From Geothrix terrae (GTDB lineage Bacteria; Acidobacteriota; Holophagae; Holophagales; Holophagaceae): a stretch of 64,000 nt of DNA. The stretch lies in NCBI RefSeq assembly GCF_022808775.1, contig NZ_JAKZLA010000002.1, forward strand, positions 186,001-250,000, given 5' to 3'. How positions within the stretch are numbered: the stretch's first letter is position 1; each line of letters starts with the position of its first letter. Both the position numbers and the translations under genes were made by a program. The notes below the pieces were generated by a model. It was not told where the DNA came from, ran no database searches, and worked only from the letters and a program-made list of their open reading frames with translations. Shown in pieces: positions 43,367 through 49,146 of this stretch.

Positions 43367-44041
43367 CTAGACGATCCCCTTCTGGAACGCGAAGGCCACC
43401 GCCTCGGCCTTGGAGTGCACCTCCAGCTTGTCGAGGATCTTCTGGGTGTGGTTCCGCACCGTCAGGGCCGAGATGTGGAGGAAGTCGGCGATCTCCGGGG
43501 TGGTCCGCCCCGCGGCGATGAGGCCCAGGATCTCCACTTCCCGCTGGCTGAGCCGGCGGGCCCGGGCGTCCGGCGACTCGCGGGCGTTCTGGGCGGCCGG
43601 CCGGGGGGCCGCGCCGTTCTCGTTCCCGCTGGCGGCGGGCGCCGCCGACCGCTCCGAGGGCTTCAGGATGTGCATCAGGTAGAAGTGGTGGGGCGGCGGG
43701 GCCGCCAGCTGGAGGATGACCACCTCCGCGAGGACCAGGTGGCGGTCCTTCGCCACGAAGCGGAGGTCGAAGTGCCGGACCACCTCTCCCCGGCCCGCCA
43801 TCCCCACCAGGGGGCAGTTCTCGCTGCAGTAGCGGTTGCCCCATCCGTCGCACCCGCCCATCAGGTCCGCGCAGGAGGCCCCCACGGCTTCCTGGGCCGT
43901 GAAGCCCAGCAGGGCCTCGGCGCTGCGGTTCCAGGCCGCGATGTGGTTGTGGCGGTCCGTGATGAACACCGGATCGGGCGAGTGCTCCACCGTCGCCAGG
44001 ATGGGGCGCAGCTCCTCGGGCAGGCGCGAGACCGCGCTCAC
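43367..44041 (-). CDS. PAS-domain LuxR-type transcriptional regulator
   Basis: A 224-residue regulator. An N-terminal PAS domain (about 10-120) contains SCADLMGGCDGWGNRYCSENCP, a four-Cys group that could bind a metal or cluster. A LuxR helix-turn-helix follows (about 155-215, LSQREVEILGLIAAGRTTPEIADF, LTVRNHTQKILDKL). GTG 44041 with GGGAG upstream is preferred; a longer frame to 44161 has no good ribosome site. It lies 193 nt before the redox operon in the same direction, so it is a likely controller. Confidence 0.8.
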   Translation of the reverse strand: MSAVSRLPEELRPILATVEHSPDPVFITDRHNHIAAWNRSAEALLGFTAQEAVGASCADLMGGCDGWGNRYCSENCPLVGMAGRGEVVRHFDLRFVAKDRHLVLAEVVILQLAAPPPHHFYLMHILKPSERSAAPAASGNENGAAPRPAAQNARESPDARARRLSQREVEILGLIAAGRTTPEIADFLHISALTVRNHTQKILDKLEVHSKAEAVAFAFQKGIV

Positions 44042-44333
44042 CGGCGCTCCCGCGATCCCGGGTGGGGGGCGGCAGGCTGGCCGGGAACTTGACGCATGGG
44101 ATCCGCTCCGTGGTCCCGGAGGGCCGGTGATAAAGGAAATGCGTCGTATTCTCCGCAGCACAACGAAGGCCTGTCCACAGAAATTTCATATGTATTTGTA
44201 TAAACAAGATTTTAAGACCCGCGCCAGCATTGGCTCCCTTCGTTTTTTACCAGGGGGGTCCGGGGCGCCCCTCCCCGCCGGCACTTGACAAACCTCCGCC
44301 CCCAGGACTCATCCTTGGCCCCTGGGGGATGCT
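44042..44333. other. AT-rich intergenic stretch before topA
   Basis: No gene seen. The part near 44160-44220 is AT-rich, and TTGACA at 44285-44290 could be the topA -35, with only weak -10 candidates around 44309-44314. The LuxR-type gene's own promoter should also lie here. Confidence 0.4.
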
Positions 44334-46817
44334 GTGACCAAACTCGTGATCGTCGAAAGCCCGTCGAAGGCGAAGACCATCACCAAGTACCTCGGCAAGG
44401 GGTACAAGGTCATGGCCTCCGTGGGCCACATCCGGGACCTCCCGCGCAAGCTGGGGGTCGACATCGAGAACGGTTTCCAGGAGGAATACGAGATCAGCCC
44501 GGCCAAGGAGAAGGTGGTCAAGGAGCTGAGGGCCGCCGCCAAGACCGCCGACGAGCTGGTGCTTGCCACCGACCCCGACCGCGAGGGGGAGGCCATCAGC
44601 TGGCACCTGCTGGAGGCCATCAAGCCGCCCAAGAGCCTGCCCGTCAGCCGCGTCCTCTTCAACGAGATCACCCCGGCGGGCATCCAGAAGGCCATGGCCG
44701 CGCCCACGGTCATTAATAAGAAGCTTGTGGATGCCCAGCGGGCCCGCCGCGTGCTGGACCGGCTCGTGGGCTACAAGGTGAGCCAGGTGCTCTGGGACAA
44801 GGTGCGCCGCGGGCTCAGCGCCGGGCGCGTCCAGAGCGTGGCCGTGCGCATCATCGTGGACCGCGAGAAGGAGATCCAGGCCTTCAACCCCGTCGAATAC
44901 TGGGTGCTGAAAGCCAAGTTCGCCGCCAAGCTGCCGCCCTCCTTCTGGATGAAGCTGGTGAAGGTGGGAGGCGAGGCCCTGCAGCTCGGCAACAAGGAGA
45001 CCAAGCGCCGGGTGGCGGACGCCGCCCAGGCCAAGGACCTGAAATCGAAGCTGGAGAAGGCCGCCTACAAGGTCACCAGCCTGGAGACGAAGGAGAAGAA
45101 GCGGAACCCCGCCGCCCCCTTCACCACCGCCAAGCTCCAGCAGGAATCGGCCCAGAAGCTGAAGATGAGCGTCAGCCGCACCATGCAGAACGCCCAGCGC
45201 CTGTACGAGGGCGTGGAATTCGGCGAAGGCCCCGTGGGCCTCATCACCTACATGAGAACGGATTCGCCCCGCATGGCCCCCGAGGCCGTGGAGGCCACCC
45301 GCGAGCTCATCGCCAAGAAGTACGGCAAGGAGTACCTGCCCGCCAAGGCCCGAGTCTACACCGGCAAGGCCGGGGCGCAGGACGCCCACGAGGCCATCCG
45401 CCCCACGGACGTGGCCCGCACGCCCGAGAGCCTGCGCGGGCACCTGGAGCCCGACCAGTTCCGCCTCTACGCCCTCATCTGGCGGCGGACCATGGCCTCG
45501 CAGATGGAGGCCGCCCGCTTCGACGAGACCGTGGTGCAGACCGAAGCGGAAGTGGGCAAGGAGACGGCGCTCTTTGAAGCCAAGGGCGAGATCGAGCGCT
45601 TCCCCGGCTGGCTGGCGGTCTACCGCGCCGACAAGAGCGAGGCCGACGCCGAGTCCATCGCCGACGCCACCAAGGATGGCACCCGGGATGGCGAGGAGGA
45701 CGAGGACGAGGAGCAGCTCCCGGCCCTGAAGCTGGGCGAGGCCCTGAAGCTGGAGCAGCTCGACGCCGACCAGTCGTTCACCAAGCCCCCGGCGCGCTTC
45801 AACGAGGCCACCCTGGTGAAGGAGCTGGAGGAGGACGGCATCGGCCGGCCCTCCACCTACGCCAGCATCATCAGCACCATCCAGGACCGGGACTACGTGA
45901 AGAAGCACGAGGGCCGCTTCAAGCCCACGGAGCTGGGCATGGTGGTCACCGAGCTGCTCATCCAGGGCTTCCCGCGCCTGCTGGACAGCAAGTACACCTC
46001 GGGCATGGAGGGCAACCTCGACCGCATCGAGGAGGGCCAGCTCACCTTCAAGAAGGCCATGACCGACTTCTACGGCCCCTTCGAGAAGGCGCTCCAGGCC
46101 GCCGGGCAGGACATGCAGAACCTGAAGGCCGGCGTGCCCACGGGCGAGAAGTGCCCCAAGTGCGGCGACCGGAAGAAGCACCCGGGCGTGCTGCTCAAGC
46201 GCATCGGCCGCAACGGGCTCTTCGTGGGTTGCACCAACTACAGCGCCGAGGCCGAGAAGGACAAGTGCGACTACACGGCGGACCTCGAGAAGATGGAGGA
46301 GCCCGAGGACGCGCCCGAGTGCCCGCTCTGCGGCACCACGCCCATGAACCTGCGCAAGGGCCAGTGGGGCCCCTTCTGGGCCTGCCCCAACTACCCCAAG
46401 TGCAAGGGCATCGTGAAGGCCGATCCCAAGGGCATCCCCGTGCCGCCGGACGAGCCCATCGGCGAGAAGTGCCCCAACTGCGGCAAGGACTTCGTGAAGC
46501 GCCACGGCCGCTACGGCGAGTTCATCTGCTGCATCGACTACCCCACCTGCAAGACGGTGAAGAAGGAGATCCTGGCCGTCCCCTGCCCCAAGTGCGGCGG
46601 CGGCCTCAGCCCCCGCAAGACCCGCTTCGGCAAGGTCTTCTACGGCTGCGTGAACTACCCCAAGTGCGACTTCACCGCCTGGGACAAGCCCGTCCCCGTC
46701 ACCTGCCCCGCCTGCAAGAACCCCAGCATGGGCGAGAAGACCCGCAAGCCGAGGGGGAAGGACCCCATCCAGGTGCTGCTCTGCCCCAAGTGCGGGCATG
46801 AAGAGCCGATGGGATGA
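44334..46817 (+). CDS. topA: DNA topoisomerase I
   Basis: An 827-residue type IA topoisomerase that relaxes negative supercoils. The TOPRIM start is KLVIVESPSKAKTITKYLG and the catalytic Tyr306 is in LITYMRTDSPRM. The C-terminus carries five zinc-ribbon-like CxxC units (CPKCGDRK, CPLCGTTP, CPNCGKDF, CPKCGGGL, CPACKNP), somewhat more than many TopA proteins. GTG 44334 is the start; there is no earlier in-frame option. The AT-rich island begins right after its stop. Confidence 0.97.
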   Translation: MTKLVIVESPSKAKTITKYLGKGYKVMASVGHIRDLPRKLGVDIENGFQEEYEISPAKEKVVKELRAAAKTADELVLATDPDREGEAISWHLLEAIKPPKSLPVSRVLFNEITPAGIQKAMAAPTVINKKLVDAQRARRVLDRLVGYKVSQVLWDKVRRGLSAGRVQSVAVRIIVDREKEIQAFNPVEYWVLKAKFAAKLPPSFWMKLVKVGGEALQLGNKETKRRVADAAQAKDLKSKLEKAAYKVTSLETKEKKRNPAAPFTTAKLQQESAQKLKMSVSRTMQNAQRLYEGVEFGEGPVGLITYMRTDSPRMAPEAVEATRELIAKKYGKEYLPAKARVYTGKAGAQDAHEAIRPTDVARTPESLRGHLEPDQFRLYALIWRRTMASQMEAARFDETVVQTEAEVGKETALFEAKGEIERFPGWLAVYRADKSEADAESIADATKDGTRDGEEDEDEEQLPALKLGEALKLEQLDADQSFTKPPARFNEATLVKELEEDGIGRPSTYASIISTIQDRDYVKKHEGRFKPTELGMVVTELLIQGFPRLLDSKYTSGMEGNLDRIEEGQLTFKKAMTDFYGPFEKALQAAGQDMQNLKAGVPTGEKCPKCGDRKKHPGVLLKRIGRNGLFVGCTNYSAEAEKDKCDYTADLEKMEEPEDAPECPLCGTTPMNLRKGQWGPFWACPNYPKCKGIVKADPKGIPVPPDEPIGEKCPNCGKDFVKRHGRYGEFICCIDYPTCKTVKKEILAVPCPKCGGGLSPRKTRFGKVFYGCVNYPKCDFTAWDKPVPVTCPACKNPSMGEKTRKPRGKDPIQVLLCPKCGHEEPMG

Positions 46818-46873
46818 CATCCCCCCAAAAAACGTCTTAGTGTAATTAAGCAACAATTAAATGTCGGTGACCC

Positions 46874-47980
46874 ATGACGCTTGAACTAGAAATCAACCAA
46901 GCTAGAAAAGAAATCGTTTCCGATGGATATGACATGTCTTTCGGAGAAGTTATGAATTTGTACAAGGATAATGAATTAACAATTAATCCCGATTTTCAAA
47001 GATTGTTTAGGTGGGATGATTCGCAAAGAACTAGATTCATAGAATCTCTTCTACTTGGTATCCCGGTTCCACCCATCTTTGTGTACCAGAATACGGATGG
47101 CATCTGGGAATTAATTGATGGTCTTCAAAGATTATCCACCGTCCTCCAGTTCGCCGGCATGTTGCACGACGAAAACGGAGTCCCCCTTCCCCCACTTACT
47201 CTTAGTGGCACCAAATATCTACCAGGTCTTGCCGATAAACGTTGGGAACAGACCGACTCCACTAGTAATGATGGTATTGGAAAATCAATTCAGTTAACTA
47301 TAAAAAGAGCCAGAATCAGAGTCGAAATTCTCAAAAAAGAAAGTGACCCTAACTCAAAATACGAATTATTCCAGAGATTAAACACTGGTGGGTCAAAACT
47401 TTCAGAACAAGAAGTGCGAAATTGTGTTGCAGTCATGATAAATCCTCCATTTAAAGAATGGCTTTTTGATCTATCTTCTAATACCGATTTTCTTAACACA
47501 ATAGCCCAAACAGAAGATGCAATTAGAATTCAGGCAAACGTCGAATTGGCTTTTCGATTTATTGCTTTTAGAAATGTCACATACACCAAGGGTCTTGATG
47601 TACATGAATATCTTGATGAGGCCCTAATTTCAATCGCGAGTGACCCATCATTTGACATGCCAACGGAAGGTGAAATTTTCAATAAAACATTCAAACTTCT
47701 TAATCGGGCACTCAATTCTGGAGCTTTTAAGAAATGGGATGGCTCGAGATTTACAGGCAAATTTTTAATGTCATTGTTTGAAGTTGTGTCAATTGGAGTT
47801 TCCAAACAAATAAGTGAAATCGAAAAATTAACCGAAGATGGACAAATCGATTTAATTACAAGTAGAGTTAAGGCTCTATGGTCGGACACCACGTTCCTCT
47901 CTCATTCCGGTGCAGGAACGCGTGGAACCACTCGACTCGTACATCTTTTACCCCTATCAAATGAATACTTTAGGCCGTAA
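46874..47980 (+). CDS. DUF262 (GmrSD/ParB-like nuclease fold) protein
   Basis: A 368-residue DUF262 protein. The N-terminal ParB/Srx-like fold has INPDFQRLFRWDDSQRTRFI and the nucleotide-binding/nuclease motif IDGLQRLST (Asp82 to Arg86); the usual DGQQR reads DGLQR. It lacks a DUF1524/HNH domain, so any cleavage would have to come from the DUF262 domain itself or a partner. DUF262 proteins are central to several anti-phage systems (GmrSD, SspE, BrxU). Very AT-rich (28% GC at 47281-47340) against the GC-rich host, so recently acquired. It ends 3 nt before the HEPN gene. Confidence 0.87.
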   Translation: MTLELEINQARKEIVSDGYDMSFGEVMNLYKDNELTINPDFQRLFRWDDSQRTRFIESLLLGIPVPPIFVYQNTDGIWELIDGLQRLSTVLQFAGMLHDENGVPLPPLTLSGTKYLPGLADKRWEQTDSTSNDGIGKSIQLTIKRARIRVEILKKESDPNSKYELFQRLNTGGSKLSEQEVRNCVAVMINPPFKEWLFDLSSNTDFLNTIAQTEDAIRIQANVELAFRFIAFRNVTYTKGLDVHEYLDEALISIASDPSFDMPTEGEIFNKTFKLLNRALNSGAFKKWDGSRFTGKFLMSLFEVVSIGVSKQISEIEKLTEDGQIDLITSRVKALWSDTTFLSHSGAGTRGTTRLVHLLPLSNEYFRP

Positions 47981-47983
47981 TCC

Positions 47984-48628
47984 ATGAAGCCTCGGACTTC
48001 ATCACAACTCCAAGATTTTCTGGACCAAGAATTTGCTTGGAGATTAAAAGAAATTGCCAATTTAAAAAATGTCATTAATGGCACGGGATCACTCGAAAAG
48101 AAAACACTTATTCGCGCATCACTCGCACTTCTTTATGCACATTGGGAGGGATTCATCAAAGCTTCCTCATTTGCATTTCTCTTTTTTATTGAGCATCAGG
48201 GATTAAAATACAATGAACTTCAATCCTGTTTTTCTGTTTTAGGTCTAAAGGGCAAACTCAATTCCTTGAAATCATCAAAACAAATGGACCAAAACAAAGA
48301 AATTCTTGAATTTATTATCAACGAATTAGATCAACCAGCAAAATTAAAATTTGATGGTGCCATACGGACTGAATCTAATCTGAACTCAGAAATTTTTGAG
48401 AATATATCTATCTCCATTGGGATTAACCCCGCACCCTATCAGACGAAATATCATTTAATCGATGAAAGTTTACTCAAACGACGAAATGGTATTGCGCATG
48501 GAGACTACATAGATATTTCCGGTTCGGATTATAAGAATCTTGCCGATGAGGTATTACAATTACTCAGAAATTTCAAAACAGATATAGAGAATTCCATTAT
48601 TTTGAATGCTTATAAAAAAAGTGCGTAA
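47984..48628 (+). CDS. HEPN-like nuclease, MAE_28990/MAE_18760 type
   Basis: A 214-residue all-helical protein. The HEPN RNase signature R-x4-H is present as RRNGIAHGDY (Arg167, His172); an upstream HWEGFIK segment matches the MAE_28990-like group. This family was predicted to be toxins or RNases of defence modules. It is as AT-rich as its partner and separated from it by 3 nt, so the two form an operon. Likely an abortive-infection or toxin-antitoxin-like effector; inferred. Confidence 0.85.
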   Translation: MKPRTSSQLQDFLDQEFAWRLKEIANLKNVINGTGSLEKKTLIRASLALLYAHWEGFIKASSFAFLFFIEHQGLKYNELQSCFSVLGLKGKLNSLKSSKQMDQNKEILEFIINELDQPAKLKFDGAIRTESNLNSEIFENISISIGINPAPYQTKYHLIDESLLKRRNGIAHGDYIDISGSDYKNLADEVLQLLRNFKTDIENSIILNAYKKSA

Positions 48629-48642
48629 AAATTTCTAGTTCT

Positions 48643-49146
48643 ATGCTCCAGGACGCCCCCTCCTTCCTCGCCTACTGGCGCAACGCCCGGTCTCGCACGG
48701 TGCGGGTGCTGGAGGCGCTGGCGCCCGAGGACCTCGAGTGGGCGCCCGTGCCCGGGGCCTTCACCTTCGGCGACCTGTTCCGCCACCTGGCGGGGCTGGA
48801 GCGCTTCATGTACGCAGAGAACGTGCAGGGCCGCCCCAGCACCTACCCGGGCCACGGGGCTGACTTGGCCGCGGGCCTGGATGGCGTGCGCGCCTACCTG
48901 GACCGCTGCCACGCGGAATCCCTGGTCCTCTTCGGCACCCTCACGGACGCGGACCTGTTGGCCCCCTGCGTGAACCCCGCCGGGGCTTCCATGGCCACAT
49001 GGAAGTGGCTCCGCGCCATGGCCGAGCACGAGGCCCACCACCGCGGGCAGCTCTACCTCATGGCCAGCCTCCGCGGCCGAACCGTCGCCCCCCTCTTCGG
49101 CCTCACCGAAGCCCAGCTCGCCGCCGCCTCCCAAGCGAAAAGCTGA
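48643..49146 (+). CDS. DinB family protein
   Basis: A 167-residue four-helix DinB-like protein. Candidate metal-binding His are in LFRHLAGLERF and EHEAHHRGQLYLM. DinB proteins are putative metal-dependent enzymes, often thiol-transferases; function here is unknown. Its composition returns abruptly to high GC, marking the right edge of the island. ATG 48643 lies 14 nt after the HEPN stop. Confidence 0.88.
   Translation: MLQDAPSFLAYWRNARSRTVRVLEALAPEDLEWAPVPGAFTFGDLFRHLAGLERFMYAENVQGRPSTYPGHGADLAAGLDGVRAYLDRCHAESLVLFGTLTDADLLAPCVNPAGASMATWKWLRAMAEHEAHHRGQLYLMASLRGRTVAPLFGLTEAQLAAASQAKS

Follow-up and report, generated by a model that had tools for sequence, protein, structure and literature searches.

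The pairing of a DUF262 gene with a HEPN gene is already known in outline: PD-T4-2 is published, and a survey of 2013 had pointed out HEPN next to a "ParB nuclease" gene. PD-T4-2 was reportedly described from E. coli ECOR65 by Vassallo et al. in 2022. The system came from a functional selection and protects ECOR65, the strain it is native to, as well as K-12 against T4 (PMC9519451); it is listed under DUF262 and the PF18735 HEPN family (PMC10952713). The 2013 HEPN survey of Anantharaman et al. placed the MAE_28990 HEPN in an operon with a ParB nuclease, listing "ParB nuclease and DNA methylase" (PMC3710099); these operons were predicted to be defence systems from their gene neighbourhoods, and their mechanism and the clade considered here were not studied in 2013. 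In BrxU and SspE, DUF262 controls the nuclease through its binding or hydrolysis of NTP, which is linked to sensing whether DNA is modified (PMC10952713). Literature searches for a DUF262-HEPN pair by domain name returned PMC3710099 and PMC10952713 only, and searches under the names NsnA and NsnB returned only unrelated papers.

The locus described here lies in a 64,000-nucleotide stretch of the Geothrix terrae genome (the window) and, as in PD-T4-2, consists of two genes, for a DUF262 protein and a HEPN protein assigned to PF18735. With the MAE_28990-type operons it has in common the HEPN family and a ParB-like partner, DUF262 having the ParB/Srx fold. Menshen (DUF262, a DUF3696 ATPase and a third gene) has a related sensor, but in the window a HEPN gene stands in place of the DUF3696/OLD gene and is followed by DinB. 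GmrSD, BrxU, SspE, DndI, GrwAB and TgvAB share the QR, DGxQR and FxxxN motifs and the predicted fold with the window DUF262; their DUF1524 His-Me nuclease, however, is absent from the window pair, whose effector is a predicted RNase encoded by a gene of its own. HEPN-MNT toxin-antitoxin modules also carry a HEPN RNase in a two-gene unit, whereas the partner there is a nucleotidyltransferase and here DUF262. We consider it probable that the locus is a horizontally acquired two-gene anti-phage module in a topA-DinB hotspot, in which DUF262, sensing phage DNA by way of an NTP, would switch on an abortive HEPN RNase. Relative to the papers we could search, both the clade to which the pair belongs and the hotspot are new.

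A foreign two-gene cassette

The first-pass annotation of the window, made from the sequence alone, had reported an AT-rich two-gene island of DUF262 plus HEPN. Both open reading frames lie where it placed them, in the following setting:

44334 to 46817, forward strand: topA, conserved left anchor of the hotspot, 87-99% identical among relatives within the genus
46818 to 48640, no strand: variable segment, the hotspot cargo, 37% GC (window 69%), without a DNA match in 28 relatives
46874 to 47980, forward strand: DUF262 / GmrSD N-terminal domain gene, ATG start, 368 aa (PF03235, PADLOC, AlphaFold2/Foldseek)
47984 to 48628, forward strand: HEPN-domain gene, ATG start, 214 aa (PF18735, PF18737, AlphaFold2)
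48643 to 49146, forward strand: DinB-superfamily gene, right anchor of the hotspot (PF12867, 73 bits)

The segment at 46818-48640 has a GC content of 0.374, whereas 1-kb windows over the rest of the 64 kb average 0.699 (sd 0.031) and never fall below 0.601; third-position GC is 0.33 in the DUF262 gene and 0.30 in the HEPN gene, compared with 0.96 in topA and 0.93 in DinB. On this base composition the segment is foreign DNA, and it carries two complete genes. The gap of 3 nt between them (47980 to 47984) is as first annotated; the DUF262 ATG lies 56 nt past the topA stop and the DinB ATG 14 nt past the HEPN stop. Neither a tRNA, an Rfam RNA nor a convincing direct-repeat att site was found at the island. 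That the island is a decayed or silent remnant without present function is very improbable: it is AT-rich, probably a recent acquisition, and simple scans recognised no promoter or terminator, but both frames are full length, their active-site motifs are intact, and gene order and spacing have been kept.

The DUF262 protein

The product of the first gene matches PF03235 (GmrSD_N) at 89 bits, and among PADLOC models it scores best with NsnA (201 bits) and reaches 122 bits (E 5e-36) with PD-T4-2_A. Three motifs can be placed on an alignment (A4) of 74 pairs:

46997 to 47002, forward strand: QR motif (Q42 R43), Q in 73/74 and R in 71/74
47117 to 47131, forward strand: nucleotide motif DGLQR (D82-R86), with D82, G83 and R86 in 74/74 and L or V at position 84
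47369 to 47383, forward strand: FxxxN motif (F166QRLN170), with F166, R168 and N170 in 74/74

R354 is likewise invariant. The motifs QR, DGQQR and FxxxN have been reported for GmrSD-family and Grw sensors (PMC12137116); the nucleotide motif reads DGLQR in the window protein and DGQQR in GmrSD, BrxU and SspE. The AlphaFold2 model (pLDDT 92) has as its top Foldseek matches SspE (6jiv), DndI (9jfl), BrxU (7p9k) and CTP-bound ParB, with probabilities near 1, yet with low whole-length TM-scores (0.2-0.4). A Pfam search of both proteins of the pair found no DUF1524 or HNH (His-Me) nuclease, bearing out the absence noted in the first-pass annotation. The protein is thus predicted to be a ParB/Srx-fold NTPase and sensor without a nuclease domain.

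The HEPN protein

The second protein had been described as a HEPN of the MAE_28990 kind; it does match PF18737 (HEPN_MAE_28990, 115 bits), although PF18735 (HEPN_RiboL-PSP) fits slightly better (127 bits). Its catalytic motif is conserved throughout the aligned pairs:

48482 to 48502, forward strand: HEPN motif R167-N-x3-H172-G, with R167, H172 and G173 in 74/74

The R167/H172 motif did not belong to the search pattern by which the HEPN relatives were found; W19 and R20 are invariant too, and so is the YAHWEG block, a biased observation since this block was part of that pattern. The residues first proposed for mutation, Asp82 of DUF262 and Arg167 and His172 of HEPN, were correctly numbered and are invariant in all 74 pairs. 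The AlphaFold2 model is all alpha-helical (pLDDT 95.9); Foldseek found no significant structural match for it in the PDB, and a close solved structure for this HEPN family does not seem to exist. Because of that result the RNase assignment rests on the R-x4-H motif and Pfam, from which the protein is predicted to be a metal-independent endoRNase effector.

In the HEPN domains studied so far, RNA is the main target. This preference, the conserved RN-x3-H motif and the absence of a DNase domain argue against a direct modification-dependent restriction of DNA, in which HEPN would be a DNase or a structural partner and the infected cell would survive instead of aborting. The partners of DUF262 in GmrSD, BrxU and GrwAB do cut DNA, and two-gene DUF262 systems can work as complexes (PMC12137116), but we hold this reading to be quite unlikely and prefer HEPN as an RNase effector.

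Relationship to PD-T4-2 and other DUF262 systems

The window DUF262 falls in a well-supported clade (99/97) of 35 DUF262 proteins, each paired with a HEPN of the window type and separate from a PD-T4-2-like prophage pair (L196), from Menshen and from a second pair of the genus (L092); several branches in that part of the tree are long and the deep order is unsure. The prophage pair has the same gene order as the window, and its HEPN scores 33 bits with the PD-T4-2_B model and 71 bits with PF18735, whereas the window HEPN has no match to PD-T4-2_B up to E=1, and an hhalign profile comparison with a PD-T4-2-like HEPN aligns it around the catalytic motif only (probability 8.9). Given the separate clade, this missing match and a DUF262 that scores higher on NsnA (201 bits) than on PD-T4-2_A (122 bits), the window pair is best called, on its sequence relationships, a lineage related to PD-T4-2 and not a strict member of it. 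The original statement that no known system name fits the pair therefore needs amending, since PD-T4-2 is a validated DUF262 and PF18735-HEPN system, but holds to the extent that the window pair is only its divergent relative. Our reading is that the PADLOC NsnA model belongs to Menshen, because a DUF262-DUF3696 operon (L197) scores 401 bits on it; this Menshen-like DUF262 branches apart from that of the window.

A further possibility is a restriction-like system in which a methylase of the host or cassette marks self DNA, DUF262 reads these marks, and DNA without them, or the transcripts of such DNA, is attacked by the pair. Methyltransferase or restriction-modification genes adjoin the pairs on a K. 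pneumoniae plasmid and in the P2 4B2 prophage (a cytosine methyltransferase in both), on a Terrisporobacter phage and on a Psychrobacter plasmid, and a DNA methylase is among the genes listed for MAE_28990 operons (PMC3710099); however, the window pair has no DNA methylase gene beside it, and such pairs are also found on small plasmids without a methylase. We regard this methylase-guided alternative as unlikely.

In another DUF262 and HEPN clade, a cytosine methyltransferase gene follows immediately after the pair on the opposite strand, both in an E. coli P2-like phage (L010:1296-3041) and on a Klebsiella plasmid (L193:3441-5182).

Conservation and mobility of the pair

The first-pass annotation had proposed a search for conserved DUF262-HEPN pairs near defence genes. 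A HEPN profile scan of GTDB genomes yielded 298 confirmed relatives, the best 80 of which were taken further, and a scan of viral contigs yielded 12. Among the resulting 87 HEPN loci (the best 80 of 298 plus the viral scan), which span about 11 phyla and include prophages, DUF262 lies directly upstream on the same strand in 86, and five further viral loci have the same order; the sole exception, a Limnohabitans isolate (L106), retains the last 19 DUF262 codons before a full-length HEPN. Thoeris ThsB, BrxA, AbiU, PsyrT, DpdF and type II restriction-modification genes occur among the neighbours of family members, a tally made without a matched control set. The modal spacing of the two genes among relatives is a 4-nt overlap, which suggests translational coupling, and the distance matrices of DUF262 and HEPN are correlated (r=0.85 over 74 pairs; none of 2000 permutations gave a value as high).

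The DUF262 tree mixes phyla, the sequences closest to that of the window by path coming from Actinomycetota, Acidobacteriota and Pseudomonadota, and within the host genus a window-type HEPN is present in only one of 47 species, the window's own; this distribution indicates, as judged from the phylogeny, that the unit spreads horizontally. In the family, a single further genome encodes such a HEPN, at 33% identity. Annotated plasmid copies of the pair exist in Psychrobacter, Corynebacterium, Roseomonas and Leptospira, and the pair is also found on a Terrisporobacter phage and on IMG/VR contigs; a single-sequence query of a phage GenBank set gave no HEPN relative at E 1e-5. No DUF262-HEPN fusion was found among 396 searched genomes from the phylum; the only long open frame, in G125, proved to be a HEPN gene interrupted by a transposase gene.

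Five loci retain an intact HEPN where DUF262 is broken or gone: the Limnohabitans locus; L176, in which DUF262 is split by about 2.6 kb; L005, in which it is present as two ORFs; and L162 and L169, which have DUF262 frameshifts in MAGs. The reverse, a broken HEPN with an intact DUF262, is seen in L174 and L211, and both genes are decayed in L154 and L181. These loci bear on the alternative of a plain toxin-antitoxin system kept for plasmid or island stability, with HEPN as a constitutively dangerous RNase and DUF262 as its antitoxin. There are known HEPN toxins whose antitoxin is an MNT protein, many plasmids carry the pair and its two genes overlap, but a strict antitoxin should not be the first to go, and in the GmrSD-family systems that have been studied DUF262 is a sensor or NTPase domain. 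Because intact HEPN proteins persist where DUF262 is lost or broken, a free HEPN seems to be tolerated, which speaks, if weakly, against DUF262 as an obligatory antitoxin, although the cases are few and two are MAG frameshifts. The "toxin module" of the first-pass annotation is, in the toxin-antitoxin sense, less well supported than its anti-phage reading, and we think it improbable.

A proposed sensor coupled to an RNase

Under the anti-phage reading, the first gene would provide a stand-alone DUF262 NTPase, corresponding to the sensing part of modification-dependent restriction enzymes of the GmrSD/BrxU/SspE type but lacking their DUF1524 nuclease, and the second, probably co-translated, would provide a HEPN RNase. 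DUF262 would recognise something in the DNA of an infecting phage, most likely that a base is modified or lacks modification; NTP binding or hydrolysis would then alter the complex so that HEPN is switched on, and HEPN would cut RNA (tRNA or mRNA) and stop phage production, probably through abortive infection or dormancy. That DUF262 stands alone without a nuclease and is coupled to HEPN suggests such an arrangement of sensor and effector, and the most economical model, by analogy with BrxU and SspE, is that a switch of their type would control an RNase. The analysis establishes the gene pair and its conservation as a unit, its intact active-site motifs, predicted folds and mobility, and its place in the hotspot; phage protection, the sensing of DNA modification, RNA cleavage and an effect of DUF262 on HEPN that activates instead of inhibiting are the parts that we infer. 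The model is simple and testable, DNA-modification sensing being converted to RNA cleavage, and a clade with 298 matching genomes in one scan is placed beside PD-T4-2, which is validated and mechanistically unexplained.

The topA-DinB interval as a defence hotspot

In 18 of 28 relatives topA is followed, 1-8 kb downstream, by a complete or partial DinB-like gene, at 70-93% identity and sometimes duplicated or fragmentary. The island DNA of the window was found beyond topA in none of the 28, though all match at topA and 18 also at DinB. Among the 18 relatives with both anchors the cargo varies from species to species, except that L088-L090 share a GC-rich stretch and L084 and L088 a short piece; in 15 of the 28 the first kilobase after topA drops to 50% GC or less (250-nt bins). 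The cargo includes:

G035 (L102): PD-Lambda-5 A and B, 400 bits each
G019 (L101): retron III-A PRTase, 177 bits, and RT, 408 bits
G033 (L084): type III restriction enzyme, 711 bits
G021: nucleotidyltransferase of candidate system PDC-M70, 101 bits
G006: Ppl-like AAA protein, 111 bits
G007: N6-methylase with specificity domain
G012 (L078): NACHT
G024 (L094): TIR
G018: PIN
G014: weak HEPN beside a large unassigned gene
G011, same spot: divergent second pair, DUF262 (L092:759-1976; NsnA 203 bits) and HEPN (PF18735 35 bits)

The interval between topA and DinB is a variable defence hotspot in the genus. That two different DUF262 and HEPN pairs occupy one intergenic site in one genus argues strongly, by position, for the window pair as a defence cassette. 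A defence role of the pair is likely, well supported by position and by conservation; the suggestion of a probable anti-phage module has gained strongly from a unit that is conserved, occurs on phages, on plasmids and in defence islands, and here sits in a genus-wide hotspot.

More tentatively, with the balance tilted slightly against it, the pair may represent a large unnamed defence lineage that joins DUF262, the sensor of modification in type IV restriction, with a HEPN RNase acting abortively and not with a DNase; DUF262 would then be a general sensor to which various effectors can be attached, be it an HNH DNase, DUF3696/OLD or one of several HEPN types, and the genus would swap cassettes at a dedicated topA-side hotspot, having received two such pairs independently. 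The site is a new place to search for defence genes in the genus, and cargo without a family becomes a candidate. The closest relative, G004, has there an AT-rich gene for a 656-aa protein (L076:1063-3033) without a Pfam or PADLOC match, a candidate defence gene of a new kind.

The genus has a third pair, in G022 (L206:342-2085, reverse strand), away from topA, with a DUF262 of 363 aa and a HEPN of 216 aa (PF18737, 79 bits).

In L077, L082, L084 and L093 the cargo is accompanied by additional partial copies, or remnants, of the 5' end of DinB, which suggests repeated insertion or recombination at the start of the DinB gene. At the other anchor, directly after the topA stop, G005 and G008 have a sequence like the 3' half of a tRNA-Thr (CTGATTCGTAATCAGCAGGTCGCAGGTTCGAATCC), and G022 has it with small changes (L080, L085 and L087); no complete tRNA was found at these topA stops, and the sequence is possibly an attachment-site scar. 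Upstream of topA, ARAGORN called a tRNA-Arg (CCT) at 43860-43948 on the forward strand, probably a false positive, within the coding region of a PAS-LuxR regulator (43367-44161, reverse strand). Only 6 of 29 relatives have this regulator gene at a distance of up to 1.5 kb from topA, so the upstream side of topA is plastic as well as the downstream side.
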